DNA of 64,000 bases from Collinsella sp. An307 (GTDB lineage: Bacteria; Actinomycetota; Coriobacteriia; Coriobacteriales; Coriobacteriaceae): assembly GCF_002161805.1 (NCBI RefSeq), contig NZ_NFIP01000003.1:108341-172340 (forward strand), in the 5' to 3' direction. Position 1 is the first letter of the stretch. Every line of letters begins with the position of its first letter. The translations under genes were made by a program, and so were the position numbers. Shown here in pieces: positions 14,594 through 57,136 of the stretch. Under the pieces are notes generated by a model. That model did not search any database. It was not told the origin of the DNA and saw nothing but the letters and a program-made list of their open reading frames with translations.

Positions 14594-15622
14594 ATGCGAC
14601 CTCACGGCTCGCGGGCGGCAGATGCGCCCCATTCGGTTTCCATGGCGGACGTGGCGCGCGTCGCCGGTGTCTCCCAGCAGACGGTGTCGCGCGTGGTGAA
14701 CGATCAGGCAAACGTCAAGGCGGCAACGCGCGAGCGGGTGCTTGCCGCTATGGAGGAGCTGGGCTTTCGCCCCAACTACGCGGGCCGGTCGCTCCGCGGC
14801 GGCTCGTACCGGGCGGTGGGCCTCTTTATGCCCGACCTCATGTACGCCGGAAACCTTGCTACGCTCAACGGCCTCATGGCGGCTGCTGCCGAGCGCGGCT
14901 ACGCAGTGACGCTCGCCGACCAGCCGAATGCCGCCGAGCGTTCGCTTACACGCGAGTCACGTCAGATGGCGGCGCTTCCCGTGGACGGCATCGTCATCAA
15001 CATGAGTCAGAAGACCGCGGACTTCGACGAGTTCGTGCCGCTGCCCGGCCTCAAGACGGTCATCGTGGGTGCACTGCCGCATCCGCGCTGCACCACCGTT
15101 GACTCCGATCATTACGGGGCGGCCGTCATGGCGGTCGAACACCTCATCGTGCATGGGCACCGCCAGATTCGTCACATTGCAGGTCCGGTCGACTCGGTCC
15201 CGGCTGAGCAGCGCGAGCGCGCATGGCGCGATATGCTCGAGCGGCATGGTCTTCCCGTTGTGGACCCTTGTTGTGGGGATTGGTCGGCAGACGATGGGTA
15301 TGAGCTCGGGTGCCGCTTAGCCGAGGACCGCTCGGCGACGGCGCTGTTTGCCGCAAACGATCAGATGGCCTACGGCGCCATGCTCGCCCTGCGCGAACGG
15401 GGCGTGCGCGTGCCTGAGGACCTGAGCGTCATCGGTATCGATGACTCGCTCGAGGGCGTCGTGCCGCACAACATGCTCACGACGGTCCGCCTGAACCTCG
15501 AGGAGCGTGGCCGAGCCGTGTTCGAGCACGCGGTGGGTGTGCTCGCCCAGAGCACGGAGCCCGCAACGGTGCGTATTCCCGGAACGCTCGTCACGCGCGC
15601 GTCAGTGGCGGATTTGCGCTGA
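14594..15622 (+). CDS. LacI-family transcriptional regulator of galactose genes
   Basis: This 342-residue regulator has an N-terminal LacI helix-turn-helix with hinge (about residues 16-65: MADVARVAGVSQQTVSRVVN, RPNYAGRSLRGG) and a periplasmic-binding-protein-like effector domain (VGLFMPDLMYAGN, DGIVINMSQ, ALFAANDQMAYGAM, VIGIDDSLEG). RBS GAGGGAGGA precedes the ATG. Position between the divergent galMKT operon and the downstream kinase/aldolase genes suggests control of both, with galactose or a sugar phosphate as effector. That is inference. Confidence 0.88.
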   Translation: MRPHGSRAADAPHSVSMADVARVAGVSQQTVSRVVNDQANVKAATRERVLAAMEELGFRPNYAGRSLRGGSYRAVGLFMPDLMYAGNLATLNGLMAAAAERGYAVTLADQPNAAERSLTRESRQMAALPVDGIVINMSQKTADFDEFVPLPGLKTVIVGALPHPRCTTVDSDHYGAAVMAVEHLIVHGHRQIRHIAGPVDSVPAEQRERAWRDMLERHGLPVVDPCCGDWSADDGYELGCRLAEDRSATALFAANDQMAYGAMLALRERGVRVPEDLSVIGIDDSLEGVVPHNMLTTVRLNLEERGRAVFEHAVGVLAQSTEPATVRIPGTLVTRASVADLR

Positions 15623-15688
15623 TGCTGCCCTTGTCCGCATGGCGCGGTACAATTTGAGGAACGGAATTCGACCCATCGAGGAGCAGCC

Positions 15689-41606: not shown

Positions 41607-41651
41607 GGGGGACATGAAGCGCGCCGTGCGATGCGGCGGGAGAGGATGCGC

Positions 41652-42434
41652 ATGGACGCATACGATTTGGAGAGACTGGCACGCAGGGTCGCTGCGGGCG
41701 AGATGGCGCCGCACGAGCTCGTGGAGCGCGTGCACCTCGACGCGGTGAGCGACCTTGGCTACGCTCAGGTCGACACCGCGCGTGGGGCGCGCACGGGTGT
41801 CTCTGAGGTCATCTACGGTGCCGGCAAGACGCCCGAGCAAATTGCGGGCATTGTGGGCGCCATGCGCGCTGCGGGTCAGCGGCGCATCCTCATCACCCGC
41901 GTCGATGCGCAGAAAAACGAGGAGCTCCTCGCGCTCGAGGCCTTTGCCCCGGCGCTCGGCTCCTATACCTATCACGACGACGCTCACGCGGGCGTGGTGG
42001 GGGAGCTCCCCGAGCCGTCCGGTAACGGCGAGATTCTCGTTATCACCGCAGGTACGAGCGATATTCCGGTGGCGGCCGAGGCGGCGCTCACGGCCCGTTT
42101 TCTCGGCAACCAGGTGAACGTGGTAAACGATGCGGGTGTTGCCGGTATCCACCGCCTGCTGCGCCATGCAGATGACATCGCCCGCGCGCAGGTGATTATC
42201 GCCATCGCGGGTATGGAGGGGGCGCTGCCGAGCGTGGTGGGCGGTCTGGCGTCGTGCCCGGTTATCGCCGTGCCCACGAGCGTGGGCTACGGGGCCAACC
42301 TCGGCGGTGTGACCGCGCTTCTTGCCATGATCAACAGCTGTGCGAGCGGTATCTCGGTCGTAAATATCGACAACGGCTTTGGCGCGGCGTACCAGGCCTC
42401 GCTTATCAACCATCTGCCCGGCCCGCGGGAATAG
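41652..42434 (+). CDS. larB: LarB: pyridinium-3,5-biscarboxylic acid mononucleotide synthase
   Basis: This 260-residue protein has a C-terminal PurE-like domain. LarB carboxylates and hydrolyses nicotinic acid adenine dinucleotide, the first step towards the nickel-pincer nucleotide cofactor of LarA. Seen: VIYGAGKTPEQIAGIV, ITAGTSDIPVAAEAA, GVAGIHRLL, AIAGMEGALPSVVGGLASCPVIAVPTSVGYGANLGG and LLAMINSCASGISVVNIDNGFGA, all typical. The ATG at 41652 was preferred since GGGAGAGG abuts 41646. Partners in this window are the LarA-like protein (52170) and LarC (55694). Confidence 0.92.
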   Translation: MDAYDLERLARRVAAGEMAPHELVERVHLDAVSDLGYAQVDTARGARTGVSEVIYGAGKTPEQIAGIVGAMRAAGQRRILITRVDAQKNEELLALEAFAPALGSYTYHDDAHAGVVGELPEPSGNGEILVITAGTSDIPVAAEAALTARFLGNQVNVVNDAGVAGIHRLLRHADDIARAQVIIAIAGMEGALPSVVGGLASCPVIAVPTSVGYGANLGGVTALLAMINSCASGISVVNIDNGFGAAYQASLINHLPGPRE

Positions 42435-42580: not shown

Positions 42581-43750
42581 TTAACGCGTGTAGACCGTGC
42601 GGCCGCCCACGATGGTGCGCACGACCTCGAGGTCGGCGTCCACGATGGTGAGGTCGGCGTCGCAGCCACGCGCGATGTTGCCCTTGGTGGGCAGGCCGAT
42701 GAGGCGCGCGGGGTTGGCGGTCATAAGGTGCGCGGCGTGAGCCACGTCCGTGTCGGCGAACTTCACGATGTTGCGAAGCGCCTGGGCGAGCGTGAGCGTG
42801 GAGCCGGCGCGCACGCCGGTGTCGGCGAGTTTGGCGTCGCCGTCCTCAACAACCACGTCGCTCACACCGAGCTTGTAGTTGCCGTCGGGCAGGCCGGCGG
42901 CCATGATGGAGTCGGTAATGGCGACCACGCGGTCCCAACCCTTGTCCTTGAGGTAGAGGCGCACGCTGCCGGGGTGCAGGTGACGGCCGTCGCAGATGGC
43001 CTCGACGTAGAGGTCGCTCTCAAGCGCAACGCCCCAGATGGCGGGGTTGTGCTGGTGGAAGAGGCGCATGGCGTTGCCCAGATGGGTCGCACTCGCGGCG
43101 CCCGCCGCCACACATGCCATGGACTCGTCGTAGCCCGCGCCGCTGTGGCCGATGGCGCAGACGATGCCCATCGCGTTGAGCTCGGGGATGATCTTCTCCA
43201 CACCGGGAACCTCGGGGGCGAGGGTGGTGTAGCGGACGTTGCCGCCGGACGCCTCCTGATAGCGGCCAAAGAGCTCCGAGGTCGCCTCATGCATGAGCAG
43301 GTGCTCGGGCATGGCGCCCTTGTACTCGCTGGAGAGGCACGGACCCTCGAGGTGGATGCCAAGGAGCGCGGCGCCGTCGTAGGGGCCGCCCTCGATGACC
43401 TTGCGGGCCTGCTCCATGCACCAGAGCGTCTGCTCGGGCGTGTCGGTGAGTACCGAGCAGAGCCAGCCGGTGACACCCTGGCTCGCAAAGAAACGGCCGA
43501 TGGTGCGCAGACCTTCCTCGTCAGCGGCGTTCACGTCAACGTTGGCAGCGCCGTGCGTGTGGATGTCGATAAAGCCGGGGAGCACGGTCATGCCGGTGGC
43601 ATCGAGCTCGGGCAGACCCTCGATGTTGGCGGTGTCACGGGGGAGACCGGCGATCTTGCCGTCTTTGACAACAACATCCGTGCGCGTCATGCCCTCGGGA
43701 AGAAGGACGGTGGCGCCTTTGAGGTAGAACGAGTTCTCAGATGAAGCCAT
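42581..43750 (-). CDS. nagA: N-acetylglucosamine-6-phosphate deacetylase
   Basis: This 389-residue amidohydrolase converts GlcNAc-6-P to glucosamine-6-P. Seen: LPGFIDIHTHGAANVDVN (His64, His66), GIHLEGPCLSSEYKGA, AIGHSGAGYDE, THLGNAMRLFHQHNP, EAICDGRHLHP and catalytic Asp in AITDSIMAAGLPDG. It lies 12 bp after nagB on the minus strand. The paralogue at 8788 is assigned to GalNAc. Confidence 0.93.
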   Translation of the reverse strand: MASSENSFYLKGATVLLPEGMTRTDVVVKDGKIAGLPRDTANIEGLPELDATGMTVLPGFIDIHTHGAANVDVNAADEEGLRTIGRFFASQGVTGWLCSVLTDTPEQTLWCMEQARKVIEGGPYDGAALLGIHLEGPCLSSEYKGAMPEHLLMHEATSELFGRYQEASGGNVRYTTLAPEVPGVEKIIPELNAMGIVCAIGHSGAGYDESMACVAAGAASATHLGNAMRLFHQHNPAIWGVALESDLYVEAICDGRHLHPGSVRLYLKDKGWDRVVAITDSIMAAGLPDGNYKLGVSDVVVEDGDAKLADTGVRAGSTLTLAQALRNIVKFADTDVAHAAHLMTANPARLIGLPTKGNIARGCDADLTIVDADLEVVRTIVGGRTVYTR

Positions 43751-43762
43751 AACGGGGCCTCC

Positions 43763-44584
43763 TTAGTAGGCCTGACCGGCTGCGACGTTGTTGACGAAGA
43801 TCTTCGCGTCGGGGTGGTTCTGCAGAAGGGTCGCCGGGAAGGCAGCGGTGATGTCGCCGTAAGCGGCGCGGCGCACCACGGCGCGGTGCCAGTCGCGGAA
43901 GACGCCCAGGCGCACCTTGCGAGCGCCGAGAATCTCCTTCATGCCGATGGTCACGCAGCGATGGGGCATGTCCTCAAGGGCGCCGCCGAGGTCGCCCACG
44001 CAGTTGGTGGCGCGGGTCTCGGGGTGGATGGAGAGGACGCGCGTGTCGAGTGCGGCGAACTCGTCAACCGGCATATCGGGCTCGGGCTCGTTGAAGGCGA
44101 GGTGACCGGTGATGCCGATGCCGCCGAAGGCGATGTCAACGCCGCCGAGCTCGTCGATCACGCGGCCGACGTTGGCGGGGTCCTTGGGGTCGGGGAAGAT
44201 GCGCTGCGCCTCGGGGACAACGAGCTCCGGGTCGATCTTGCTGTAGACGGTGCGCTCCATGAAGCCGCGGAAGGAGAGGGCGTCCTCGGCGTCGATCCAC
44301 TCGTCGTCATCGGTGAGGTACTCGTCCATGTTGATGAACCAGCAGTTCTTGAGGGAGACGCGGCGCTCGTTCACGAGACGCACGAAGATGGGGTACTGGC
44401 CGACCGGGCCAACCGGGCAGATGAAGACGGTCTTCTCGCCGCGGGCGTTGTGGGCCTCGATCTCCTCGACCATGGTGAGGGCGATCTCGTAGAAGATCTC
44501 GCCGGAGTCACCGAGGACCTCCAGCGGAATCTTGGCGCCCTCGCCCAGCTTGTCAGCGGGGATGTGATAGTAGTCATGCTTCAT
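43763..44584 (-). CDS. nagB: Glucosamine-6-phosphate deaminase
   Basis: This 273-residue Rossmann-like isomerase/deaminase makes fructose-6-P and ammonia from glucosamine-6-P. Seen: FICPVGPVGQYP (normally PTGSTP), NMDEYL with Asp87/Glu88 as active-site acids, GGVDIAFGGIGITGHLAFNEP, and PHRCVTIGMKEIL. The phosphate-binding PVGPVGQ instead of P-TG-TP and the N-terminal LGEGAKIPLEVL are unusual, so it is a divergent NagB. First gene of nagBA; RBS GAGAGAGGAAG. Confidence 0.87.
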   Translation of the reverse strand: MKHDYYHIPADKLGEGAKIPLEVLGDSGEIFYEIALTMVEEIEAHNARGEKTVFICPVGPVGQYPIFVRLVNERRVSLKNCWFINMDEYLTDDDEWIDAEDALSFRGFMERTVYSKIDPELVVPEAQRIFPDPKDPANVGRVIDELGGVDIAFGGIGITGHLAFNEPEPDMPVDEFAALDTRVLSIHPETRATNCVGDLGGALEDMPHRCVTIGMKEILGARKVRLGVFRDWHRAVVRRAAYGDITAAFPATLLQNHPDAKIFVNNVAAGQAY

Positions 44585-44701: not shown

Positions 44702-45763
44702 CTACTTGATCTCCTCGTAGATCTTGTACGCCTCGTCCATGATGTCGGTCTTGACGTAGTTCTCCACGGGGACCTCCTCGGTGACTTGGCCACCGTCGAG
44801 GAAGACCTTCTGCTGAGCCTCGTAGTAACCGAGGATGACGTCGTCATTGCCGAGCGCCTCGACCGTACCGTCCCAGTCGCCCTCGCCCGTAGCCTGCTGC
44901 ATGGTCTCCTCGGGAACCTCGAGCTCGGTGGCGAGCAGCGTCGCGACCTTGTCGATGTTCTCGGCACGATAGACCTGAGCCTTGGCGATGGCAGCGCCGA
45001 AGCGAGCGAGAATCTCAGCGTTCTCCTCAGCGTACTCGGGCAGGCACACGAAGCTGGACGGGAAGGCGACCTCGTCGGAGTAGTCGGTGTTGGTGCCGAG
45101 GACGAGGTAGTTGTCGCCGAGCTCGTTAGCGATGGTCACGGTGTTGGGCGACCAAGTGGCGGCGGCGTCGATCTGACCGGAGAGAAGAGCGGTGGTCATA
45201 CCAGCGACCTGCATCTCCTGGACCTCGATGTCGTCACGGGTGAGGCCGGCGTCACGGAGCACGTAGTCGAGGATGATCTCGGAGGAAGTGCCGGACTGGA
45301 GGCCGACCTTCTTGCCCTTGAGGTCAGCGGCGGAAGCAATCTTGGTCTTGTCGCAGACCACAGCGTCAGCCTGGGAGAGCTGGTCGAAGGCGAAGACGAC
45401 GGCGTCGCCGTTGATGCAGAGGCTGTGAGCACCGTGACCGATCTGGGAGATGTCGATGCTGCCGGACTGCATAGCGGTGATCTCGGCGGGGCCGGCCTCG
45501 AACTTGGTGGCCTCGATGGTGATGCCGACCTCGTCGAAGTAACCCTGATCCATGGCGGAGAAGAGGGAGGAAGCCGAACCGAGGTTAGGCATGTAGGCAA
45601 CGCGCAGGGTCACGGGCTCGTACTCAGAGCTGGCGGCGGGGGTGCTGCCGGCAGGAGTCTCGCCGTTGCTGCAGCCGGCGAGGCCGGCCATGGCAAGACC
45701 GAGGCCACCGAGGCCAGCAAGCATGCTGCGACGGCTGAGCATGAAGTCGTTCAGGTTGGACAT
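44702..45763 (-). CDS. ABC transporter substrate-binding lipoprotein, SsuA/TauA/NMT1-like, with Tat-type signal
   Basis: This 353-residue receptor has a twin-arginine signal (SRRSML, Arg11-Arg12) combined with a lipobox ending at Cys31 (GLAGC), so it may be exported folded and then lipidated. The mature protein has LRVAYMPNLGSASSLFSAMDQGYFDEVGI, GSIDISQIGHGAHS and LKGKKVGLQSGTSSEIILDYVL, typical of nitrate/sulfonate/taurine/pyrimidine receptors. The ligand is not predictable. It is last in a permease-ATPase-receptor operon and is separated from the ATPase by three hairpins. Confidence 0.87.
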   Translation of the reverse strand: MSNLNDFMLSRRSMLAGLGGLGLAMAGLAGCSNGETPAGSTPAASSEYEPVTLRVAYMPNLGSASSLFSAMDQGYFDEVGITIEATKFEAGPAEITAMQSGSIDISQIGHGAHSLCINGDAVVFAFDQLSQADAVVCDKTKIASAADLKGKKVGLQSGTSSEIILDYVLRDAGLTRDDIEVQEMQVAGMTTALLSGQIDAAATWSPNTVTIANELGDNYLVLGTNTDYSDEVAFPSSFVCLPEYAEENAEILARFGAAIAKAQVYRAENIDKVATLLATELEVPEETMQQATGEGDWDGTVEALGNDDVILGYYEAQQKVFLDGGQVTEEVPVENYVKTDIMDEAYKIYEEIK

Positions 45764-45873: not shown

Positions 45874-46665
45874 CTACTTGCGGACGGAGAGGTACTCCTG
45901 GTACACCTGGCTCCAGATCTCGTTCTTGAGCTCAAGGAAGCGCGGGCTCATCTTGGTGGCCTGGTCACGCGGATAGGGGATATCGATGTCGATGATGTCC
46001 TTCACGCGGCCGGGACGTGCGCTCATGATCACGCAGCGGTTGCCAAGGATGATTGCCTCCTCGACGTCGTGGGTGATGAAGAAGCAGGTCTTGCGCTCCT
46101 TCTCCCACGTCTCGATGAGCTCCTGCTGGAGCTGAGTGCGGGTCTGCGCGTCGAGAGCACCGAAGGGCTCGTCCATGAGCAGGACCTGCGGGTTGGTGGC
46201 ATAGGCGCGGGCGATGGCGACGCGCTGCTTCATGCCGCCGGAGAGCTCTTTGGGATAGTGGTTGGCGAAGTCCTCGAGCTCGACCATCTTGAGGTACTTA
46301 TGGGCGATCTCCTCGGCCTCCTCCTTGGATTTGCCCTGGAGCTTCAGACCGAACATAACGTTCTTGATGACCGTGAGCCACGGGAAGAGCGCGTACTGCT
46401 GGAAGACGATGCCGCGCTCGGGGCTCGGGCCCTCAACAGGCTTGCCATCAACGAGGACCTGGCCATCGGTGGGCTTCTCAAGGCCGCCGATGATGTTCAG
46501 GAGCGTCGACTTACCGCAGCCGGACGGGCCGACGACCGTGATGAACTCGTTCTCGTGGATATCGAGGTCGACGCCGTTGAGTGCAGTCATCTCACCTTTG
46601 CGCGTCTGGAACTTCTTCACCACATGGTCAATCTTGACCTTTACTGCTGCACTGTTTCCTGCCAT
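45874..46665 (-). CDS. ABC transporter ATP-binding protein, SsuB/TauB/NrtD type
   Basis: This 263-residue ATPase has Walker A GPSGCGKST, Q-loop VFQQYALFPWLTV, the signature [19 protein letters not shown], Walker B VLLMDEPFGALDAQTR and H-loop FITHDVEEAI. LFPWLTVIKNV and the C-terminal SARPGRVKDIIDIDIPYPR are typical of the nitrate/sulfonate/taurine class. It overlaps the permease gene by 25 bp, so the two are coupled. Confidence 0.92.
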   Translation of the reverse strand: MAGNSAAVKVKIDHVVKKFQTRKGEMTALNGVDLDIHENEFITVVGPSGCGKSTLLNIIGGLEKPTDGQVLVDGKPVEGPSPERGIVFQQYALFPWLTVIKNVMFGLKLQGKSKEEAEEIAHKYLKMVELEDFANHYPKELSGGMKQRVAIARAYATNPQVLLMDEPFGALDAQTRTQLQQELIETWEKERKTCFFITHDVEEAIILGNRCVIMSARPGRVKDIIDIDIPYPRDQATKMSPRFLELKNEIWSQVYQEYLSVRK

Positions 46666-47423
46666 CCGGTGAACCTCCTTTCAAGGAAGCGAACAATCTT
46701 CTCGAAGGCGATGCCGATGATACCGAGCATGATGATGCCCAGCAGCACGACGTCCATCTGATAGTAGCCACTGGCCTGCTGAATCATCATGCCGAGGCCG
46801 CGGTCGCCACCGACGATCTCGGAGGCCATGAGGGTCGTGAGCGACGTGGAGAGGCCCAGGCGCGCAGCGACGAGGATGAACGGGGTGGAGGCGGGGATGA
46901 TGACCTTGAAGAAGATGTCAGACTCCTTGGCGCCGAGCACGCGCGCCGCCTTGATGAGGGTAGTGTCGACACCCTTGACGCCCTGATAGATGGTAACAAC
47001 CTGGACCAGGAACGCGGCGATGAAGATAACCGTGATCTTGGAGACGTTGCCGATGCCGAGAGCGGCGATGATCAGGAAGACGTAGGCGAGCGGCGGAATG
47101 TTACGGATGAACTGGATCCACGGCTCGACGATGTGGCGGAACGGGTCGTACCACGCCATGAGGAATGCCACGGGGATGGACGTGACAAAAGCGATTCCGA
47201 AGCCCGTAAGGACGCGGGAGAGCGACGCCCAGGTGTGCTCCCAGAGCGTGCCGGAAACAGCTCGGGTTACCGCGGCGTCCCAGACCTCGATCGGCGATGC
47301 GAAGACCGCCGGCCAGGCGCTGTTGGCGAAGAACCAGAGTGCACCGGCGCAAGCCACCGATATAAGCACCCACACCCAGTTGGGTATCTTCGCCCAGATG
47401 GGCACTTTCTTTTCATTCTGCAT
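46641..47423 (-). CDS. ABC transporter permease, SsuC/TauC/NrtB type
   Basis: This 260-residue inner-membrane protein has about six helices and the EAA loop KAARVLGAKESDIFFKVIIP. Others: WASLSRVLTGFGIAFVTSIP and IRNIPPLAYVFLIIAALGIGN, typical of this class. The ATG at 47423 was chosen for GAAAGGAG; an upstream open frame of 48 codons runs into the regulatory region and lacks membrane-protein character. First gene of the operon, divergent from the LacI gene. Confidence 0.9.
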   Translation of the reverse strand: MQNEKKVPIWAKIPNWVWVLISVACAGALWFFANSAWPAVFASPIEVWDAAVTRAVSGTLWEHTWASLSRVLTGFGIAFVTSIPVAFLMAWYDPFRHIVEPWIQFIRNIPPLAYVFLIIAALGIGNVSKITVIFIAAFLVQVVTIYQGVKGVDTTLIKAARVLGAKESDIFFKVIIPASTPFILVAARLGLSTSLTTLMASEIVGGDRGLGMMIQQASGYYQMDVVLLGIIMLGIIGIAFEKIVRFLERRFTGWQETVQQ

Positions 47424-47476: not shown

Positions 47477-47494
47477 TACTTAAACGTATAAGTA
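47477..47494. promoter_or_regulatory. LacI-type operator O1 (ABC operon side)
   Basis: TACTTAAACGTATAAGTA has perfect 6-bp arms TACTTA/TAAGTA. It lies 54 bp upstream of the permease start. The pattern ACTTAAACGT-TAAGT is repeated at 47734-47751. Confidence 0.75.
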
Positions 47495-47733
47495 GCCGGA
47501 CGAACATTCTCATCAAGCATAGTAGCCGCCTTTTCGCCGAATTGATAGGGGGAAGCTTGGCCTTCAATCGTCGGATTACCGTGTTTCAAGGGCATTAAAA
47601 GCGCAGGTAAACATGCGAATAAACGATTTATCTTTGAGCGTGCCCCTTTTCTCCAAACGGTAGTTTTAGAGCGCCCAACGGTCTATTTCGATTTGTTTAC
47701 AAGAAGTCGAGAATATCTTTGCAGCTTCGTGGT

Positions 47734-47751
47734 AACTTAAACGTGTAAGTT
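47734..47751. promoter_or_regulatory. LacI-type operator O2 (regulator side)
   Basis: AACTTAAACGTGTAAGTT has perfect 6-bp arms and lies 66 bp upstream of the LacI start. It matches O1 at 15 of 18 positions. A CpG centre and A/T flanks are usual for LacI-family operators. The rest of 47424-47816 is AT-rich and without genes. Confidence 0.75.
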
Positions 47752-47816: not shown

Positions 47817-48887
47817 ATGGCAAAGCGCGTGACATTAAAAGACATCGCTCAGGCTGCCAATGTCACCGCTGCGACGGTCTCCTATGTAATAAATGACACG
47901 CCCGGCCAATCCATCGCGCCCGAGACGCGCGAGCGCGTGCTGCGCGCTGCGCGCGAGCTCAACTACGTGCCCAACAGCGCCGCCCGGACGCTTCGCCGCC
48001 GCCGGTCGCTGTGCGTGGGCGTCGTTGCGAAGAAAAACGTCGCCGTGCCCCGCTTCTCCCAGACGATCCGCGGTATCCAGAGCCGTCTGGAGGATTTGGG
48101 TTACAACCTTCTTCTTTGTACTAATAAAGTAAAGACGGCCGGTTTGAGCGATTACTTGATCGCGTATCTCGAGGGTCGCGTCGACGGCGTCATCTTCCTG
48201 GGCAAAGACAACGTTGGACCGAGTGCCGCGAGCCTCGCCGTTATCAAGCGCGACCATATTCCGCTCGTGGCCTTTGACTGCACGGGCAACTCTAACGTGT
48301 ATAGCACTATCGATTTCGATTACCGGGGCGGCGCGCGCGCCCTTGCTGAGCGTGTGCTTACCGAGGGGCCCGCACGCGTGCTCTACGTCAAGCCGGATAT
48401 CGACACCCCGCAGGAGCGCGACCGCGAGCGCGGTCTTTCAGACGCGCTCGAGGCGCACCCCGAGACTGAGCTCATTACCGTGACGACCCCCGTCACGCTC
48501 GAGAACCTCGACGTCTGGGACCTTCGCTACTCGGTCGGCACCACGCCCGAGGGTGATCGCTTGACGGCTGCGTTTTCCGAGATTCTGCGTCGTGCGGTCG
48601 ATGACCTCGACCGCGGAGATGCTGTTATTGCGAGCTGGTCGGGCTGGACCGAATCCATCCGCTACCGCTGCCGCGAGCGCGGCATCATCACCGCAGAGCT
48701 CGCCAACAACGCTGAGAGCAACTTCTACCCCGATTTCTACTTACGCCTACCCAACTTCGACGCGGGCGTCGCCTGCGCCGACGAGATGCTTTCGCTTATA
48801 GACGGCAAACCCTCGAGCGCACGTATCCTGCACCTCACCAACGTGTGCGACGGAAGGCGCGGCGTCTATGGGCGGGAACCAAGGTAA
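47817..48887 (+). CDS. LacI-family transcriptional regulator, divergent from the ABC operon
   Basis: This 356-residue regulator has an N-terminal HTH and hinge (KRVTLKDIAQAANVTAATVS, LNYVPNSAARTLRRRRS) and a ligand domain (VGVVAKKNVAVPRFSQTIRG, DGVIFLGKD, IPLVAFDCTG). The C-terminal part is less typical: DAVIASWSGWTESIRYRCRERG replaces the usual NDxxA segment. The ATG at 47817 follows GAGGAGG. Twin palindromes O1 and O2 on either side of the intergenic region make auto-control and control of the ABC operon likely. The aldolase follows 48 bp downstream and may be co-transcribed. Confidence 0.87.
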   Translation: MAKRVTLKDIAQAANVTAATVSYVINDTPGQSIAPETRERVLRAARELNYVPNSAARTLRRRRSLCVGVVAKKNVAVPRFSQTIRGIQSRLEDLGYNLLLCTNKVKTAGLSDYLIAYLEGRVDGVIFLGKDNVGPSAASLAVIKRDHIPLVAFDCTGNSNVYSTIDFDYRGGARALAERVLTEGPARVLYVKPDIDTPQERDRERGLSDALEAHPETELITVTTPVTLENLDVWDLRYSVGTTPEGDRLTAAFSEILRRAVDDLDRGDAVIASWSGWTESIRYRCRERGIITAELANNAESNFYPDFYLRLPNFDAGVACADEMLSLIDGKPSSARILHLTNVCDGRRGVYGREPR

Positions 48888-48935: not shown

Positions 48936-50090
48936 ATGCCACTCGTCCCCCTGAAGCCCGTGCTCGATGCCGCTAAGGCTAACGGCTATGCACAGGGTGC
49001 GTTCAACGTGAACGCGGTCTGCCAGGCCAAGGCCGCCATCGAGGTGCATGAGATGTTCCGCAGCCCGGTCATCCTGCAGGGTGCCGACCTCGCCAACGCC
49101 TTCATGGGCGGTCGCGCCGACTTTGCCAACGGCACCGTTGAGGACAAGATTCGCGGCGCCAAGAACATCGGCGACGCTGTTAAGAAGTATGGCGAGAACT
49201 CCCCGGTGCCGGTGGTGCTCCACCTCGACCACGGCCGTGACATGGAGTCCGTCAAGGCAGCTATCGCCGGCGGCTACACCTCGGTCATGATCGACGGCTC
49301 GTCGCTGCCCTTTGAGGAGAACAAGGAGCTCACCCGCGAGGTCGTTAAGTACGCCCACGAGCGCGGCGTCTCCGTCGAGGGCGAGCTCGGCGTGCTCGCC
49401 GGCGTGGAGGACCACGTCTTCGCGGCTTCCTCGACTTACACCAACCCGCTTTCCGCCGTTGAGTTCGTGCGCGACACCGGCTGCGACGCGCTCGCCATTT
49501 CCTACGGCACCATGCACGGTGCCTCCAAGGGCAAAAACGTCAAGCTCCGCCGCGAGATCCCCATCGCCATCCGCGAGTGCCTGGCGCACGAGAACCTCGA
49601 CTGCGCGCTCGTGAGCCACGGCTCCTCGACCGTCCCGCAGTACATCGTGCGCGAGATCAACGAGCTCGGCGGCACGATCGGCGAGGCCCACGGCATTCCG
49701 GTGGCCGAGCTCATCGACGCCATCCCCGCGGGCATCAACAAGATCAACGTCGATACCGACATCCGCCTTGCCGTGACGCGCAACATGCGTGAGCTCTTCG
49801 AGCGCGAGCCCGAGCTCAAGGAGAGCTCGCTCTCCGGTGTCTGGCAGCTTCTCGACGAGAAGCGCGACCAGTTTGACCCGCGCGCCTTCCTGCCGCCGGT
49901 CTATGACCTCGTTATGTACGGCACCGTGGCAGACGACGCCCAGGCAAAGCTCGTTGCCGCCATCGAGGCGGGCGTCAAGGAGGCGGTGGGCACGCTCATC
50001 GTCCAGTTTGGTAGCTACGGCAAGGCGCCGCTCGTTGAGGTCGCCACGCTCGACGAGATGGCTGAGCGCTACGCGAAGGCAGGGAAGTAA
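48936..50090 (+). CDS. Class II ketose-bisphosphate aldolase (long form)
   Basis: This 384-residue zinc aldolase has VVLHLDHGRDMESV (Asp/His), GEAHGIPV and INVDTDIRLAVTRNMREL; the zinc/phosphate segments VEGELGVLAGVEDHVF and LVSHGSSTVP are recognisable. It is about 100 residues longer than the aldolase at 16800, mainly at the C-terminus. Fructose-1,6-bisphosphate is the default substrate, but a related ketose bisphosphate is possible given the odd operon. The ATG at 48936 was preferred over GTG 48927 because AAAGGAG is 11 nt and 2 nt away, respectively. Confidence 0.85.
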   Translation: MPLVPLKPVLDAAKANGYAQGAFNVNAVCQAKAAIEVHEMFRSPVILQGADLANAFMGGRADFANGTVEDKIRGAKNIGDAVKKYGENSPVPVVLHLDHGRDMESVKAAIAGGYTSVMIDGSSLPFEENKELTREVVKYAHERGVSVEGELGVLAGVEDHVFAASSTYTNPLSAVEFVRDTGCDALAISYGTMHGASKGKNVKLRREIPIAIRECLAHENLDCALVSHGSSTVPQYIVREINELGGTIGEAHGIPVAELIDAIPAGINKINVDTDIRLAVTRNMRELFEREPELKESSLSGVWQLLDEKRDQFDPRAFLPPVYDLVMYGTVADDAQAKLVAAIEAGVKEAVGTLIVQFGSYGKAPLVEVATLDEMAERYAKAGK

Positions 50091-50092
50091 TC

Positions 50093-51253
50093 ATGGCAGG
50101 TAAGAACATCCTCGTGATGCACGGCGGCGGCCCGACGGCTGTCATCAACGCATCGCTTTACGGCATCGTCGCCGAGGGCAAGGCCCATTCCGAGATCGCG
50201 CACGTCTACGGCGCGCACGGCGGCCCCTCCGGTCTTATGAACGGCACCCTCATCGACCTCAGCTCGATGGATGACTCCGAGCTCGTGCGCCTGCGCGACG
50301 CGCCGGGTTCCGCCATCGGCACGGGTCGCGACGCGCTCGCCGGTCATTACCCGGCTATGGTCGAGCTGCTCGTCAAGAACAAGATCGACATCGTGATGCC
50401 CACCGGCGGCAACGGCACGATGAACACCTGCGCTCTTCTGCAGGAGGCCATAAACGAGGCCGGTGTGGACATCCAGGTCATCGGCGTGCCCAAGACCATG
50501 GACAACGACATCGCCGAGATCGACCATGCGCCGGGCTACGGCAGCGCCGCGCGTTACGCCGCCCAGAGCGTGGGCGAGGTGTGCTGCGACGTGCACAGTA
50601 TGCCCATCCACATCGTGGTCGTCGAGGTCATGGGTCGTGCCGCCGGCTGGGTTGCGGCGGCGACCGCGCTCGCCGAGACCTGCGGTCAGGGCGGCCCCGA
50701 CCTCATCTATATGCCCGAGCGCGCCTTTGACCAGGATGCCTTCCTCGCTGACTGCCAGCGCATCATCGACACCAAGGGCGGCGGCGTGGTCGTGGCGAGC
50801 GAGGGTTTGCACTATGCGGACGGCACCCCCATCGTCGAGCCGGTTATGGAGGTCGAGCGCGCTACCTACTACGGTGACGTCTCCTCGCACCTGTCGAACC
50901 TCATCATCAAGCACCTCGGCTACAAGGCCCGCTCCGAGAAGCCCGGTCTGCTCGGCCGCGCCTCTACGGCGCTCCGGAGTGAGTCGGACGTGCGCGAGGC
51001 CGAAGAGGTCGGACGCGCCGCGGTGCGCGCCGCTCTCGCGGGCGAGACCGGCAAGATGGTCGGCATCCAGCGCATCCCGGGCGACGTGTACGGCATCGAG
51101 ACGAATCTCATCGATGTCGAGCGCGTTCGCATGATCGAGCGTCTGCTGCCCGATACGTTCATCAACGAGGCGGGCAATGGCGTTACGCCCGAGTTCAAGA
51201 CCTGGGCTGCACCCCTTGTGGGCGAGCTGCCGCGCTTCGTGAGCTTCCTGTAA
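50093..51253 (+). CDS. 6-Phosphofructokinase (PfkA superfamily, G/K type)
   Basis: This 386-residue kinase phosphorylates fructose-6-P or a related ketose-6-P. Seen: VMHGGGPTAVINASL, PTGGNGTMNT (equivalent of GGDGS), GVPKTMDNDI (equivalent of PGTIDND), GSAARYAA, VVEVMGRAAGWVAAA and GIQRIPGDVYG. The residue after GGN is Gly, as in ATP enzymes, but PKT carries Lys, as in PPi enzymes. This G/K pair is known from long ATP-type families as well, so the phosphoryl donor is uncertain. It starts 3 bp after the aldolase stop. Confidence 0.85.
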   Translation: MAGKNILVMHGGGPTAVINASLYGIVAEGKAHSEIAHVYGAHGGPSGLMNGTLIDLSSMDDSELVRLRDAPGSAIGTGRDALAGHYPAMVELLVKNKIDIVMPTGGNGTMNTCALLQEAINEAGVDIQVIGVPKTMDNDIAEIDHAPGYGSAARYAAQSVGEVCCDVHSMPIHIVVVEVMGRAAGWVAAATALAETCGQGGPDLIYMPERAFDQDAFLADCQRIIDTKGGGVVVASEGLHYADGTPIVEPVMEVERATYYGDVSSHLSNLIIKHLGYKARSEKPGLLGRASTALRSESDVREAEEVGRAAVRAALAGETGKMVGIQRIPGDVYGIETNLIDVERVRMIERLLPDTFINEAGNGVTPEFKTWAAPLVGELPRFVSFL

Positions 51254-51278: not shown

Positions 51279-52115
51279 ATGAAACATATCTTTCTGAACC
51301 TCAAACGCTTTGATATCAAGCCCGAGCTGGGCGGCGTGAATCGCTTGGCCGAGCCCGAGCGCTGGGGCGAGGCCGTGACCTCGTCTATCAAGGAGGTTGC
51401 GAGCCGCTATGCGGACGCGGAGTTTGCCGCGTTTCTGCCCGAGGCGCATCTTACGAGCGCCGTTGCGGGCGCTGAGGGCTCGCCTCTGGGCGTGGGCTGC
51501 CAGGGCGTGCACACCGCCGACACCGCCCCGGGCGGCAACTTTGGCGCGTTCACGACGCTGCGCACCGGCAACGCCGTGGCCCAGCTCGGCTGCACCTGGG
51601 CGCTTATCGGCCACTGCGAGGAGCGCATGAACCTGCGCGCCATCATGGGTGAGGCCGGCGCGGACCCGGAGGCCGTTGAGGCCGCGGTCAACCGCATCCT
51701 CGCCCGCGAGGTCGCCGCGGCTCAGGCTGCGGGTCTCAAGGTGCTCTTCTGCATGGGCGAGCGCGAGGAAGAGGTCGACCGTTGGGACGAGGTGCTCGCC
51801 ACGCAGGTGCGCGAGGGTCTCGCCGAGGCGGACCTCGCCGGCGTGCGCGTTGCCTACGAGCCCGTGTGGAGCATCGGTCCGGGCAAGACCCCCGCAGACG
51901 CTCCGTACATCCAGAAGGTCGCCCGTCTCATCAAAGAGACGGTACCGGGAGTCGACGTGGTATACGGCGGTGGCCTCAAGGCCGATAACGCCGAGATGCT
52001 CGCCGGTATCCCCGAGATCGACGGCGGCCTCATCGCCCTCACGCGCTTCACCGGCGAGATTGGCTTCTATCCGGAGGAGTACGCCGAGATCGTTGACCTG
52101 TACATGAACGCGTAG
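51279..52115 (+). CDS. Divergent triose-phosphate isomerase family protein
   Basis: This 278-residue TIM barrel has TPI catalytic features in changed form. The Asn/Lys loop is FLNLKRFD (Asn7, Lys9) instead of GNWKM. The electrophilic His is His112 in ALIGHCEER (usually GHSERR), and the base is Glu194 in YEPVWSIGPGKTP, followed by VVYGGGLKADN. It may be the housekeeping TPI or a paralogue for a modified triose. It is 25 bp after the phosphofructokinase, in the same operon. Confidence 0.82.
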   Translation: MKHIFLNLKRFDIKPELGGVNRLAEPERWGEAVTSSIKEVASRYADAEFAAFLPEAHLTSAVAGAEGSPLGVGCQGVHTADTAPGGNFGAFTTLRTGNAVAQLGCTWALIGHCEERMNLRAIMGEAGADPEAVEAAVNRILAREVAAAQAAGLKVLFCMGEREEEVDRWDEVLATQVREGLAEADLAGVRVAYEPVWSIGPGKTPADAPYIQKVARLIKETVPGVDVVYGGGLKADNAEMLAGIPEIDGGLIALTRFTGEIGFYPEEYAEIVDLYMNA

Positions 52116-52169: not shown

Positions 52170-53666
52170 ATGCATCTTGATTTCGAGTGGGGCACCGGCA
52201 TGATGGGAGCCGAGCTCCCCGATAACACCGATGTCTTTGTCACCGGCGAGACCGTAAAGGACCCCGAGTGCCTGCCGCAGGACTGGGATAGCCTGTACGC
52301 CGCCACCCTCGAGAGCATCCGCAACCCCATCGGCATGGATCCGCTCGCCTCCTATGCCGGCCCGGGCAAAAAGGTCGTCATCGTCATTCCCGACATCGTG
52401 AAGGGCGGCACCCAGCCTACCGCGCACCGCAAGGTCGCCATCCGTGCCTGCCTGGACGAGCTCTTCGCCCACGGCGTCAAGCACGATGACGTGCTTCTGC
52501 TCTTCTCCAACGGCCTGCATCCGCGCACCTCGACCGCCGAGGCCAAGCAGATTCTCGGTCTTGACCTCTACAACGAGTTCGAGGGCACGGGCCAGATCAC
52601 GAGCCACGACTCCGAGGACTACGATCACCTCGTCGACCTCGGCTTCACGCCGCAGGGCGACCACGTGATCATGAACAAGTACGTCTACGACGCCGACATC
52701 GCCATCCTCATCGGCCACACGCAGGGCAACCCCTACGGCGGCTACTCGGGCGGCTATAAGCACTGCGCTACCGGCATCACCCACTGGAAGAGCATCTCCG
52801 CTCATCACGTTCCGCGCGTCATGAGCCGTCCCGACTTTGTGCCCGTTTCCACCTCTTCCCTCATGCGCGACAAGTTCGACCAGCAGGGCATGTTCATGGA
52901 AGAGAAGATGGGCAAGAAGTTCTTCTGCGTGGACGCGGTGCTCGACACCTGGAGCCGCCAGATCGCCATCTTCTCGGGTTACGCCGCCGAGATGCAGCCC
53001 ATCGCCTGGGAGCTCGCCGACAAGCGCACCTACGTGCACTGGGCCGAGAAGAAGTACGACATCGTGGTCATGGGCATGCCCACGAACTTCCACTACGGCG
53101 ACGGCATGGGCACCAACCCCATCCAGATGATGCAGGCCGTCTCTGCCCAGGTCATCCGCCACAAGCGCATCCTCTCCGACCATTGCGTCTTTGTGATTGC
53201 GAGCTACTGCAACGGCTGGTTCCATGACGAGCGCTGGCCGTACCTGCGCGAGCAGTGGGAGCTGTGGCAGTCCGACAAGATGAACACGCTCGACGAGATG
53301 ATCAAGTACGGCGAGTACTTCGCTACCAACCAGGAGTACATCCGCAAGTACCGCTTCGCGAACGCGTTCCATCCGTTCCATGGCTTCAGCATGATGACCT
53401 GCGGCAACCTCGCCGAGAAGTACCTCGCTGCCACCTACATCGTGGGCGCGCAGAAGCCGGGCATCGCCCGCACCATGGGCCTCAAGACCCGCCCGACCTT
53501 CGAGGAGGCCATCGCCGACGCCACGCGCAAGTACACCGACGGCAACCCCAACATCCTGGCGCTGCCGCACGCGTACAACCGCGCCGTGCCGCACCTGTGC
53601 ATGAAGGACCCCTCGCAGAACAGCCACTTCATGGATGACGCTCCGGCGCATCCCTGCGGCTGCTAG
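52170..53666 (+). CDS. LarA-family nickel-pincer-dependent racemase/epimerase-like protein
   Basis: This 498-residue protein is a DUF2088/LarA homologue. Compared from memory with Lactobacillus plantarum LarA, the pincer-binding lysine is Lys197 in GGYSGGYK, the nickel-ligand His is His213 in SAHHVP, and the first catalytic His is His117 in NGLHPRTS. The second catalytic His (His174 in LarA) aligns with Asn188, although His183 is nearby. The C-terminus ends HPCGC. LarA itself racemises lactate; relatives act on malate and sugar acids. Its operon partners suggest a sugar-derived hydroxyacid. RBS AAAGGA. Confidence 0.82.
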   Translation: MHLDFEWGTGMMGAELPDNTDVFVTGETVKDPECLPQDWDSLYAATLESIRNPIGMDPLASYAGPGKKVVIVIPDIVKGGTQPTAHRKVAIRACLDELFAHGVKHDDVLLLFSNGLHPRTSTAEAKQILGLDLYNEFEGTGQITSHDSEDYDHLVDLGFTPQGDHVIMNKYVYDADIAILIGHTQGNPYGGYSGGYKHCATGITHWKSISAHHVPRVMSRPDFVPVSTSSLMRDKFDQQGMFMEEKMGKKFFCVDAVLDTWSRQIAIFSGYAAEMQPIAWELADKRTYVHWAEKKYDIVVMGMPTNFHYGDGMGTNPIQMMQAVSAQVIRHKRILSDHCVFVIASYCNGWFHDERWPYLREQWELWQSDKMNTLDEMIKYGEYFATNQEYIRKYRFANAFHPFHGFSMMTCGNLAEKYLAATYIVGAQKPGIARTMGLKTRPTFEEAIADATRKYTDGNPNILALPHAYNRAVPHLCMKDPSQNSHFMDDAPAHPCGC

Positions 53667-53678
53667 TAACGCTTTGGA

Positions 53679-53716
53679 GCTGTCTGGGCCGGGCATATGC
53701 CCCGTGCTCAGACAGC
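53679..53716. promoter_or_regulatory. Alternative stem overlapping element A
   Basis: GCTGTCTG (53679-53686) pairs perfectly with CAGACAGC (53709-53716). This cannot form together with the outer stem of element A, so the region has two mutually exclusive folds. Confidence 0.5.
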
Positions 53717-53757
53717 TTCGCTTTGCGAAGAACTGCGCGCGGAGCATATGCCCGGCC
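53687..53757 (+). repeat. Structured intergenic element A (plus orientation)
   Basis: The outer stem GGCCGGGCATATGC (53687-53700) pairs perfectly with 53744-53757. Inside are CCGTGC/GCGCGG and CTTCGC-TTT-GCGAAG, separated by an asymmetric internal loop TCAGACAG/AACT. The core shares CCGTGCTCA-ACAGCTTC and GCGAAGAACTGCGCGCGG with element B. It lies 21 bp after the LarA-like stop. No U-tract follows. Confidence 0.8.
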
Positions 53758-53857
53758 AGCCAGCCTGCACGGTTGCTTGAGCAGGACTGATTCCGTCGAC
53801 GTGATTGTTCGCCCGCACGTTTACGCCTTCCTGGAATAGGACCTAAACGTTGCTGAG

Positions 53858-53934
53858 AGTTCGGACGTGTCCGCCGCGCGCAGTTCTTCGCGCGCAGCGA
53901 GAAGCTGTTTGAGCACGGTGGACACGTCCGAACT
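53858..53934 (-). repeat. Structured intergenic element B (minus orientation)
   Basis: The outer stem AGTTCGGACGTGTCC (53858-53872) pairs perfectly with 53920-53934. Read on the minus strand, its 47-nt core matches that of element A, with the same CCGTGC/GCGCGG stem and TCAAACAG/AACT internal loop. The outer arms of A and B differ at about 6 of 14 aligned positions, with compensating changes on the other arm. It ends 25 bp before the gpi start. Between A and B, half-sites CACGTTTA (53816) and TAAACGTT (53844) recall the LacI operators O1/O2. Confidence 0.8.
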
Positions 53935-53959
53935 CCTCCGATACGAATTGGAGCTTCAC

Positions 53960-55222
53960 ATGCTCGATCTGAACATCAAGTTCGCTGAGAAGTTCGTTTC
54001 AACCGACGAGCTGGATGCCTACGCCGCTGCGCACGCTGACGTGCTCGCGCGCTGTCAAGCGGGCGAGGAGCGCTACGCTGACTCCCAGGGCTGGCTTGAC
54101 GTGGACGAGTGGGCGGGGCCCGAGATTCTCGACCGTACCGAGAAGCTCGCCGCGCACATCCGTGAGATTGCCGACACCTTCGTGATCATCGGCGTCGGCG
54201 GTTCCAACAACTCCGCCCGCGCCGTGGTGGAGGCCACGCACCCGAGCGGTGCGCGCATCGTCTACGCGGGCAACACGCTTTCCGCCTATGAGCTCAACCG
54301 GGTTATCGAGGAGCTCGAGGGGCATGAAGTGGTCATCGACTGCATCGCCAAGAACTTCGAGACGCTCGAGCCCGGTTCCTCGTTCCGCCTGCTCCGTCAG
54401 TACCTTGTTAAGCGCTATGGACGTGAGGAGGCCGCCCGCCGCATCGTCTGCTGCGGCACCATTGGCTCGCCGCTCGAAGACCTCTGCCATGCGGAGGGCT
54501 ACACCTTCGTGCCGTTTGCGACCAACGTAGGCGGCCGCTACACCGCGCTCACCGAGGTCCATCTGCTGCCGCTTGCCGTTGCCGGGGCAGACATCCGCGC
54601 CCTTGCCGCCGGTGCCAAGAAGATGCAGGAGCTCTGCCGCTGCTCCGACAGTGTCTCCAACTCCGCATGGCGCTATGCCTGCGCGCGCAACATCCTGTGG
54701 GACCGCGGCTACCGCGTCGAGCTTCTTGGTTTCTTTGAGCCGCGTTTCCGCTGGTTCTCCAAGTGGTGGGAGCAGCTCTTTGCCGAGAGCGAGGGTAAGG
54801 ACGGCAAGGGCATTTTCCCCTCGTCGCTCGAATGCTCTGAGGAGATGCACTCGCTCGGCCAGTACGCTCAGGACGGCACCCATCAGCTCTTTGAGACCTT
54901 CATCGACCTCACGACGCCCGGCGAGGGCGATAGCCTGGTCTTAGGTGGCACGGATGTTGCCGATGCCTTTGGGTATCTCGACGGCAAGGATTTTTGGGAC
55001 ATCAACAAGGCGAGCTTTACCGCCACGCGTGCGGCGCATGCCGAGGTCCTGCCCGTCTTCACGCTCGAGATCGACCGCATCGATGAGGAGCACTTCGGTA
55101 TGCTGTTCTACTGGTTTGCCTTTGCATGCTATGCTTCTGGTAGTCTGCTGGGTGTGAATCCATTCGATCAGCCCGGCGTAGAAGCCTATAAGCGCCTTAT
55201 GTTCGAGGCGCTGGGGAAATAG
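53960..55222 (+). CDS. Glucose-6-phosphate isomerase (short class) or related sugar-phosphate isomerase
   Basis: This 420-residue SIS-fold protein is of the PGI family. Seen: TFVIIGVGGSNNSARAVVEA (phosphate site, about 73-92), CCGTIGSPLEDLC, the acidic/His region SLGQYAQDGTHQLFET, and the C-terminal lysine in NPFDQPGVEAYKRLMFEAL. It interconverts glucose-6-P and fructose-6-P, or analogues. The family's usual SIGGS is GVGGS here, and the Arg-rich loop is changed, so it is divergent. The ATG at 53960 has TTGGAG upstream; longer frames would run through element B. Confidence 0.83.
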   Translation: MLDLNIKFAEKFVSTDELDAYAAAHADVLARCQAGEERYADSQGWLDVDEWAGPEILDRTEKLAAHIREIADTFVIIGVGGSNNSARAVVEATHPSGARIVYAGNTLSAYELNRVIEELEGHEVVIDCIAKNFETLEPGSSFRLLRQYLVKRYGREEAARRIVCCGTIGSPLEDLCHAEGYTFVPFATNVGGRYTALTEVHLLPLAVAGADIRALAAGAKKMQELCRCSDSVSNSAWRYACARNILWDRGYRVELLGFFEPRFRWFSKWWEQLFAESEGKDGKGIFPSSLECSEEMHSLGQYAQDGTHQLFETFIDLTTPGEGDSLVLGGTDVADAFGYLDGKDFWDINKASFTATRAAHAEVLPVFTLEIDRIDEEHFGMLFYWFAFACYASGSLLGVNPFDQPGVEAYKRLMFEALGK

Positions 55223-55693: not shown

Positions 55694-57136
55694 ATGGGAA
55701 AGACGCTCTATCTTGATTGCACAAACGGCATCAGCGGCGATATGACCGTCGCTGCCCTGCTTGACTTGGGTGCCAACGAGGCGCGTCTGCGTGACGCGCT
55801 GGCGAGCCTGCCCGTTTCGGGATATGAGGTGCGCATCAGTCGCGTAAAGAAAGCCGGAATCGACTGCTGCGATTTTGACGTCGTGCTCGATGCGGCGCAC
55901 GAGAACCATGACCACGACATGGCCTATCTGCACGGTGAGAGCGGTGAGCACCATCATTCCCGTGACCATGTGTGCTGCCACGAGCATACCCACAATCATG
56001 TCCACTCCCATGAGCTGGGAAAAGATTACGATCACCATTGCGACCACGAGCATGATCACGGACATAGTCACGGGAACCACGGCCATGAGCACGCCCATCA
56101 CCATCATCACGAGCATCGTGGCCCCGCTGACATAGATGCGATCATCGATGCTGGCCAGCTTGCGCCGCGTGCCCGTGACCTTGCGCACCGCATGGTCGAC
56201 GTAATTGCCCATGCGGAGGCCAAGGCCCACGCCGTCCCCCTCTCTGAGGTGCACTTCCACGAGGTGGGGGCCATCGACTCTATCGTTGATATCGTGTCGG
56301 TGGCGGTGCTTCTTGACGACCTGGATATCGACCGCGTTATCGTTCCGCGCTTGGTGGACGGACACGGCACCATCCGCTGCCAGCACGGCGTCATCCCCGT
56401 TCCGGTTCCTGCGACCCTCAATATCGTCGAGGCCCACGGCCTGCCGCTTTCGGTCTCTGATGTCGAAGGCGAGCTGGTGACGCCCACCGGTGCCGCTATC
56501 GTTGCCGCCACGAGGGCCGAGCATGTGCTTCCTGAGCCGTTTAGGGTGGTCAAGACGGGTCTTGGTGCGGGCAAGCGCACCTATGAGTGCCCGAGCATCC
56601 TGCGCGCGATGCTGATCGAGGAGCTTCCTGGTGAGGGCGATCCTGCGCCTGCGACGAGCGCTTCGTTTACGGGCAATCCGCTTGCGGCGCCTACCATTGG
56701 GGCCGACGCGCCTACGCAGGTCGTCCGTTTGGAATGCGATATCGACGACGCGACGGGGGAGGAGCTCGCGTACGCCGCGGAGCGCATCCGTGAGGCAGGC
56801 GCGCGCGAGGTCCACTGGGCGCCGATCTTCACCAAGAAGGAGCGCCCTGCGTGGCAGCTTCAGGTTGTCGCCGCTGCCGGCGACGTTGCCGCTGTGGAGC
56901 ATGTCATCTTTGCCGAGACAACTACCATCGGCGTTCGTCGTTGGGTGTGTGAGCGCACGGTGCTTGCGCGCGAAGAACTTACGGTCGAGACGCCCTGGGG
57001 CGAGGTTCGCGCTAAGCGAGCGACGCTTCCCAACGGCTCTGCGCGCGTGAAGCCCGAGTATGCGGACTGCGCGCGTATTGCGCGGGCCGAGGGCGTGCCG
57101 CTGCGCGCGGTTATCGACGCCGCGACGCGCGCATAG
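55694..57136 (+). CDS. larC: LarC: nickel insertion enzyme for the pincer cofactor, uninterrupted, with His-rich insert
   Basis: This 480-residue protein inserts nickel into the pincer nucleotide (CTP-dependent cyclometallase in the characterised LarC). Seen: LYLDCTNGISGDMTVAALLDLG, EVHFHEVGAIDSIVDIV, GTIRCQHGVIPVPVPATL, LVTPTGAAIVAA, and the C-terminal LECDIDDATGEELAYA. Residues 69-141 hold about 30 histidines, a likely nickel store or ligand. In L. plantarum larC needs a programmed frameshift; here both parts are one frame. RBS GGGGAG. Confidence 0.92.
   Translation: MGKTLYLDCTNGISGDMTVAALLDLGANEARLRDALASLPVSGYEVRISRVKKAGIDCCDFDVVLDAAHENHDHDMAYLHGESGEHHHSRDHVCCHEHTHNHVHSHELGKDYDHHCDHEHDHGHSHGNHGHEHAHHHHHEHRGPADIDAIIDAGQLAPRARDLAHRMVDVIAHAEAKAHAVPLSEVHFHEVGAIDSIVDIVSVAVLLDDLDIDRVIVPRLVDGHGTIRCQHGVIPVPVPATLNIVEAHGLPLSVSDVEGELVTPTGAAIVAATRAEHVLPEPFRVVKTGLGAGKRTYECPSILRAMLIEELPGEGDPAPATSASFTGNPLAAPTIGADAPTQVVRLECDIDDATGEELAYAAERIREAGAREVHWAPIFTKKERPAWQLQVVAAAGDVAAVEHVIFAETTTIGVRRWVCERTVLAREELTVETPWGEVRAKRATLPNGSARVKPEYADCARIARAEGVPLRAVIDAATRA

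Follow-up and report, generated by a model that had tools for sequence, protein, structure and literature searches.

Two near-palindromic sites, O1 and O2, flank the divergent promoter region between an ABC permease gene and a lacI-type gene in the window (the whole stretch of DNA analysed, 64,000 nucleotides of Collinsella sp. An307), and their sequence and conservation make it very probable that they are operators of the LacI-family regulator encoded by the adjacent gene. The surrounding cassette contains importer genes, altered paralogues of glycolytic enzymes and a LarA homologue of the single-histidine type (Table 1), and its make-up suggests an EMP-like route of breakdown, the substrate of which would be an anionic sugar, unphosphorylated at C6 and perhaps sulfonated.

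Table 1. Position of the cassette genes and of the predicted regulatory elements in the window.
Feature	Coordinates	Strand	Remarks
larB	41631..42434	+	NPN cofactor synthesis; AIR-carboxylase domain
NagA-like deacetylase	42581..43750	-	NCBIfam nagA, above cut-off
NagB-like deaminase/isomerase	43763..44584	-	Without TGGT phosphate loop and K208
Substrate-binding lipoprotein (SBP)	44702..45763	-	SsuA/TauA (NMT1) family; closest solved relative E. coli SsuA
ABC ATPase	45874..46665	-	SaoA/TauB/NrtCD type
ABC permease	46641..47423	-	TauC/SsuC/SaoP type
Predicted operator O1, TACTTAAACGTATAAGTA	47477..47494	.	Permease side; centre 62 bp from permease ATG; conserved in 10/10
TACTAT	47519..47524	-	Candidate -10 hexamer of permease promoter, just upstream of O1
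GCAGGTAAAC	47603..47612	+	Third conserved element; intact in 9/10 genomes
Direct repeat RACGGT	47655..47682	+	AAACGGT...AACGGT, exact 21-bp period; upstream of lacI operon
Predicted operator O2, AACTTAAACGTGTAAGTT	47734..47751	.	lacI side; centre 74 bp from lacI ATG; conserved in 10/10
LacI-family regulator	47817..48887	+	356 aa; Pfam LacI HTH PF00356; recognition helix VTAATVSYV
Class II aldolase	48936..50090	+	384 aa; paralogue of housekeeping aldolase
PPi-type phosphofructokinase	50093..51253	+	Paralogue; R162->H, H249->L
TPI-like isomerase	51279..52115	+	Catalytic residues retained, phosphate ligands lost
LarAH	52170..53666	+	Single-histidine LarA type; H117 kept, N187 at second-histidine position
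GPI-like isomerase	53960..55222	+	AKNFETLEP replacing SKSGTTTEP
larC	55694..57136	+	Nickel insertion

The Two Sites and Their Conservation

Both palindromes are present exactly where, and with the sequences that, the original prediction had given, with their centres 257 bp apart. Their reading as LacI-type operators on either side of a divergent promoter region is supported, the sites being CG-centred and both adjoining and co-inherited with a LacI-family gene. The description of their arms as perfect was slightly overstated, since each site pairs at 8 of 9 positions, with one A/A or A/G mismatch flanking the ACGT core, and they are better called near-perfect; this asymmetry beside the core is retained in most relatives. 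The motif ACTTAAACGTNTAAGT has two exact copies in the window, against 0.11 chance matches expected even at ≤3 mismatches, and elsewhere in the 2.2-Mb genome one match differs from it at two positions and all others at three.

The conservation analysis covered 67 genomes of the family, of which 10 have the gene cassette and 57 lack it. Full-length orthologues of the regulator, 53-99% identical, are encoded in eight genomes besides the window's own, and in G057 the lacI gene is broken up in the assembly, with its N-terminal part intact. In this last genome (L069:7871-11337) pieces of pfk and tpi interrupt lacI and nagA is duplicated, either as an assembly artefact or as a real rearrangement. 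The comparison of related genomes that had been proposed as a check found the palindromes upstream of the orthologous genes in all ten cassette genomes, each with exactly one site before the permease gene (51-62 bp from its start) and one before lacI (58-105 bp), which makes 20/20 sites. Elsewhere in the 67 genomes a single site with 0-1 mismatches was identified, beside a lacI paralogue of G059; the 57 cassette-free genomes have no such site, and some of them contain one to three matches with two mismatches, near the control level. The DNA between the operators has diverged strongly, with ungapped identities of 51% (G000-G002) and 27% (G060-G059) and no net length change, so the operators, conserved at 14-16 of 16 positions while their intergenic surroundings are 27-51% identical or unalignable, are under strong selection. 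Their spacing takes values of 254, 257, 285, 286 and 299 bp among lineages (257 in five genomes, 254 in two) and is fixed within lineages despite the sequence divergence, and its helical phases scatter among lineages. DNA looping between O1 and O2 is possible.

Other elements of the intergenic region are also conserved to some extent. Just upstream of O1, 6/10 genomes retain a TAnnAT hexamer, and a sigma-70 scan of the region found no promoter. The RACGGT repeat keeps its 21-bp period in nine of the ten genomes, the other (G052) having an AGCGGC-AGCGGC form, and it is likely bound by a different regulator ahead of the lacI operon; in a 464-kb sample of the genome itself it gives five matches at period 21 vs 1-3 at neighbouring periods, a signal too weak to define a regulon. 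On the permease side, G059 has another RACGGT pair in mirrored orientation. The GCAGGTAAAC element is inverted in G037 and G057 and, together with the repeat, suggests a minimum of one additional regulator, which may be an activator.

A wider regulon had also been proposed, based on half-sites at 53816 and 53844 before gpi. These are present as TAAACGT/ACGTTTA words, shared only with the near-identical genome G007 and absent upstream of gpi in G001, G002, G003, G060, G059 and G037; as they are not conserved, and the genome has no other good site, this part of the prediction is not supported. Two inverted hairpin elements stand before gpi (53687-53757 and 53857-53937) and have a common core, GTGCTCARACAGCTTC...GAAGAACTGCGCGCGG, with perfectly paired outer stems of 14-16 bp that are completely different from each other; no further copy of the element was found in 464 kb of the same genome.

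The Regulator and Its Recognition Helix

The regulator contains an N-terminal LacI-type HTH domain (PF00356, 62.4 bits vs a cut-off of 27) and scores 34.8 bits against PF13407, the model for a periplasmic-binding-protein-like effector domain (cut-off 35.1). Its residues 3-225 match the RbsR, PurR and CcpA models, at scores below the equivalog cut-offs (CcpA 81 vs 442, RbsR 101.6 vs 382, PurR 83 vs 501 bits). All ten orthologues, without exception, have the recognition helix T[AT]ATVSYV. The paralogue of G059, 38-39% identical overall, has the same TAATVSYV helix and carries directly upstream the sequence ACTTAAACGATTAAGT, one mismatch from the motif; when the promoters of other LacI paralogues were searched for the operator, the only near-match was the one at this gene.

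LacI proteins with the usual ...TVSRV helix are encoded in Lachnospiraceae divergently from pfk-tpi-larAH or from the importer, with GCAAACGTTTGC-type sites. A search for ACGCAAACGTTTGCGT-like sites in Lachnospiraceae, where only 7% of the bases searched are intergenic, gave 20 matches at ≤3 mismatches, 16 of them intergenic, vs 0-3 in shuffles. Such palindromes in the LarAH clusters (L110-L138, e.g., L124:5856, L120:7138 and L122:12971) precede pfk, permease, lacI or TauE genes and represent another operator type, predicted to serve another LacI regulator. The LacI9 protein of Lachnospiraceae was rejected as an orthologue of the regulator, its best matches in the window being to another LacI gene (14633-15631). 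In this comparison an Arg to Tyr change at helix position 22 (lac repressor numbering) accompanies a G to T change at the sixth base of the half-site, a pairing of helix and site that is a covariation and not proof of binding.

Local autoregulators of the lac and gal type in the LacI/GalR family have paired operators. The arrangement described here resembles them in its CG-centred palindromic sites, its LacI HTH domain and the presence of two sites in one regulatory region, and differs from them in its outer half-site (ACTTA instead of TG.AA), in the Tyr that goes with this half-site where the helix otherwise has Arg (position 22), and in the symmetrical placing of the sites before two divergent operons, with looping only as a possibility.

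Three other explanations of the sites were considered. Chance palindromes, or passive common ancestry of a recently acquired block, would be favoured by the patchy distribution of the cassette (10/67 genomes) and by the close relationship of several of these genomes; such an origin is refuted by the conservation of the operators amid diverged DNA and, with so few matches expected by chance, it keeps practically no probability. It is very unlikely that a LacI-family protein other than the adjacent regulator, such as a global one of the CcpA kind, uses O1 and O2: the sites are CG-centred and generally LacI/CcpA-like, and the genome does contain LacI paralogues, but they are confined to genomes with the adjacent lacI gene and to that gene, lack the TG...CA arms of cre sites and covary with the recognition helix. 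The third explanation, that O1 and O2 act only through a DNA loop bridged by a tetramer and not as independent operators, could account for a spacing that is constant within lineages, whereas it is hard to combine with a variation of up to 45 bp between lineages, with an inconstant helical phase and with the position of each operator near its own start codon, where it could act alone, so this explanation seems rather improbable.

As operators of the adjacent regulator, O1 and O2 would most likely serve to repress both divergent units until an intermediate of the pathway binds the regulator. The importer-nagB-nagA arm would be one repressed unit and the lacI-fba-pfk-tpi-larAH(-gpi) arm the other, with negative autoregulation of lacI, and each operator would lie between the promoter region and the gene or overlap the promoter, so that this catabolic cassette, patchy in its distribution, would have a single switch of its own. 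Because the promoters are not confidently assigned, repression as against activation is read from the position of the operators; we infer the inducer, the pathway and the substrate, like the binding and the repression.

Organization of the Cassette

Across the family the genes keep one order: larB, nagA, nagB, the SBP gene and the genes for the ATPase and the permease, then lacI, fba, pfk, tpi, larAH, gpi and larC, with the exceptions of G059, without the aldolase gene in place, and G052, without gpi in place and with larB on the other side. The permease most likely starts at the ATG at 47423 and not at the TTG of the longest ORF. Further copies of PFK, TPI and FBA are encoded elsewhere in the genome, the cassette versions being paralogues. 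The nearest solved relatives of the SBP are E. coli SsuA and then taurine or nitrate binders; its score lies below the SsuA_fam cut-off (TIGR01728, 148 vs 163.5 bits), and SsuA-family SBPs bind many ligands. The pairing of a sugar-type regulator with a sulfonate/nitrate-type importer, which the original prediction called odd, is not odd, because the importer belongs to the same sugar-catabolic cassette, and the genes for the importer, NagA, NagB, PFK, FBA, TPI and LarAH are found clustered again in Lachnospiraceae.

Altered Phosphate Pockets

Four enzyme families of the cassette keep catalytic residues and have lost ligands of the terminal phosphate. In an alignment with the other, canonical TPI that the genome encodes, every cassette TPI (33/33) retains N11, K13, H95, E97 and E167 and has lost phosphate ligands (S211->G, G232->A, G233->L), with T172->P in loop 6. 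The cassette PFKs (27 copies) retain D127, D129, R243 and R252, with R162->H in 26 and H249->L/I/V in all 27. Part of the TGGT phosphate loop is lost in the cassette NagBs and K208 is changed to H (20/20), D72, H143 and E148 being retained, as is R172 in 19/20. The SKSGTTTEP of the Bacillus-type GPI is replaced by AKNFETLEP in all GPI copies examined, one of them with Q for E. Ordinary glycolysis can hardly account for four enzyme families that have all lost ligands of one and the same sugar terminus, and these losses suggest a substrate without a C6 phosphate.

LarAH and the Lachnospiraceae Clusters

The LarAH of the window is about 64% identical to the solved single-histidine LarA proteins (PDB 9q3j and 9q2u; phmmer scores of 769 and 746 bits), and its Asn at the position of the second catalytic His of LarA is also found in 30/30 other cassette LarAH ORFs, so by its sequence it is a member of the single-histidine LarA subfamily. 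For this subfamily, glycolytic gene neighbours, an unknown substrate and a lack of lactate racemase activity have been reported (PMC12611868). Like LarAH, LarA_Bw of Blautia wexlerae and LarA_Sp of Streptococcus plurextorum have Asn for one catalytic His, and their genes neighbour those of GPI, PFK, TPI, FBA and GlcN6P isomerase (PMC12611868); to that account the present analysis adds the regulator and its predicted sites, an importer of the SsuA type, NagA and the phosphate ligands missing from the neighbouring enzymes.

Among 397 Lachnospiraceae-type genomes (the family of the genome holding L022, Drancourtella), 29 encode a LarAH at E below 1e-120, and TPI, PFK, NagA, NagB, FBA and the importer are encoded beside it in about half to most of the 29. 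Genes for TauE/SafE exporters are present in 11/29 of these clusters and also behind gpi in G057. Chemoreceptor genes lie just downstream of larAH in two loci (L118:10985-12913 and L119:10617-12731), the L118 protein carrying an NMT1/THI5-type binding domain, and chemotaxis towards the pathway substrate is possible. A histidine kinase and a LuxR-type response regulator are linked to the importer at L122:736-2947, and similarly in 6-7 other loci. DUF4838 proteins of about 620 aa, possibly glycan-acting enzymes, are encoded inside LarAH clusters (L111:4550-6409 and L123:12932-14809).

Proposed Pathway and Substrate

Most likely the importer takes up an anionic amino sugar, which the cassette enzymes then break down along an EMP-like route; in it the sugar would be deacetylated, deaminated/isomerised, phosphorylated at C1 and cleaved by the aldolase. 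The far end of the sugar would bear a non-phosphate group, most plausibly a sulfonate, which is favoured because of the SsuA/taurine-type relatives of the SBP, the TauE/SafE exporters and the NMT1-type chemoreceptor domain in L118; this reading of the substrate is tentative and falls somewhat short of an even chance. Like the sulfo-EMP pathways of E. coli (yih) and Arthrobacter (PMC8873060), the cassette follows an isomerase, sugar kinase and aldolase logic under a local regulator, with an ABC importer and, in some clusters, a TauE/TSUP permease. Unlike them, it uses EMP paralogues (GPI, PPi-PFK, class II FBA and TPI) with NagA, NagB and LarAH, no SLA reductase or dehydrogenase was found among the annotated cassette genes of the window, and the sulfonate substrate is putative.

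The substrate could instead be a sugar with a C6 carboxylate, such as an N-acetylhexosaminuronic acid, which NagA and NagB would convert to fructuronate and PFK and FBA to DHAP and tartronate semialdehyde; the TPI-like enzyme would interconvert the latter with hydroxypyruvate, and LarAH would epimerise the carbon beside the carboxylate. LarA enzymes act on 2-hydroxy acids (PMC11770544), and for this chemistry a C6-carboxylate sugar would be no worse a fit than a sulfonate; the missing phosphate ligands are just as compatible with a carboxylate. However, the SBP is nearest to binders of aliphatic sulfonates and taurine, exporters of the TauE/SafE type accompany the Lachnospiraceae clusters in the proportion given above, and the reported inactivity of single-histidine LarA as a lactate racemase (PMC12611868) also speaks against the carboxylate, which we regard as unlikely.

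The broader proposal, of a previously undescribed EMP-like pathway in gut Coriobacteria and Lachnospiraceae, is held with limited confidence, clearly below an even chance. It would act on an amino sugar with a C6 sulfonate or another non-phosphate anion, with GPI, PFK, NagB and TPI paralogues each lacking the ligands for a terminal phosphate and with a nickel-pincer, single-histidine LarAH performing a non-racemase step, for example an isomerisation or an elimination. A search for nickel-pincer enzymes together with sulfosugars found no match in the literature collection that it covered.

Significance

As a switch, the operator pair is of an ordinary type, whereas the pathway that it would control looks like a new variant. 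The pair delimits a functional unit, in which all genes under the regulator would belong to one pathway, and the single-histidine LarA enzymes thereby gain a testable neighbourhood, composed of an importer with its SBP, a regulator and four enzymes whose phosphate pockets are changed. With a sulfonated or carboxylated amino sugar as substrate, the cassette would represent a new way of breaking down glycans from host or diet in the gut.
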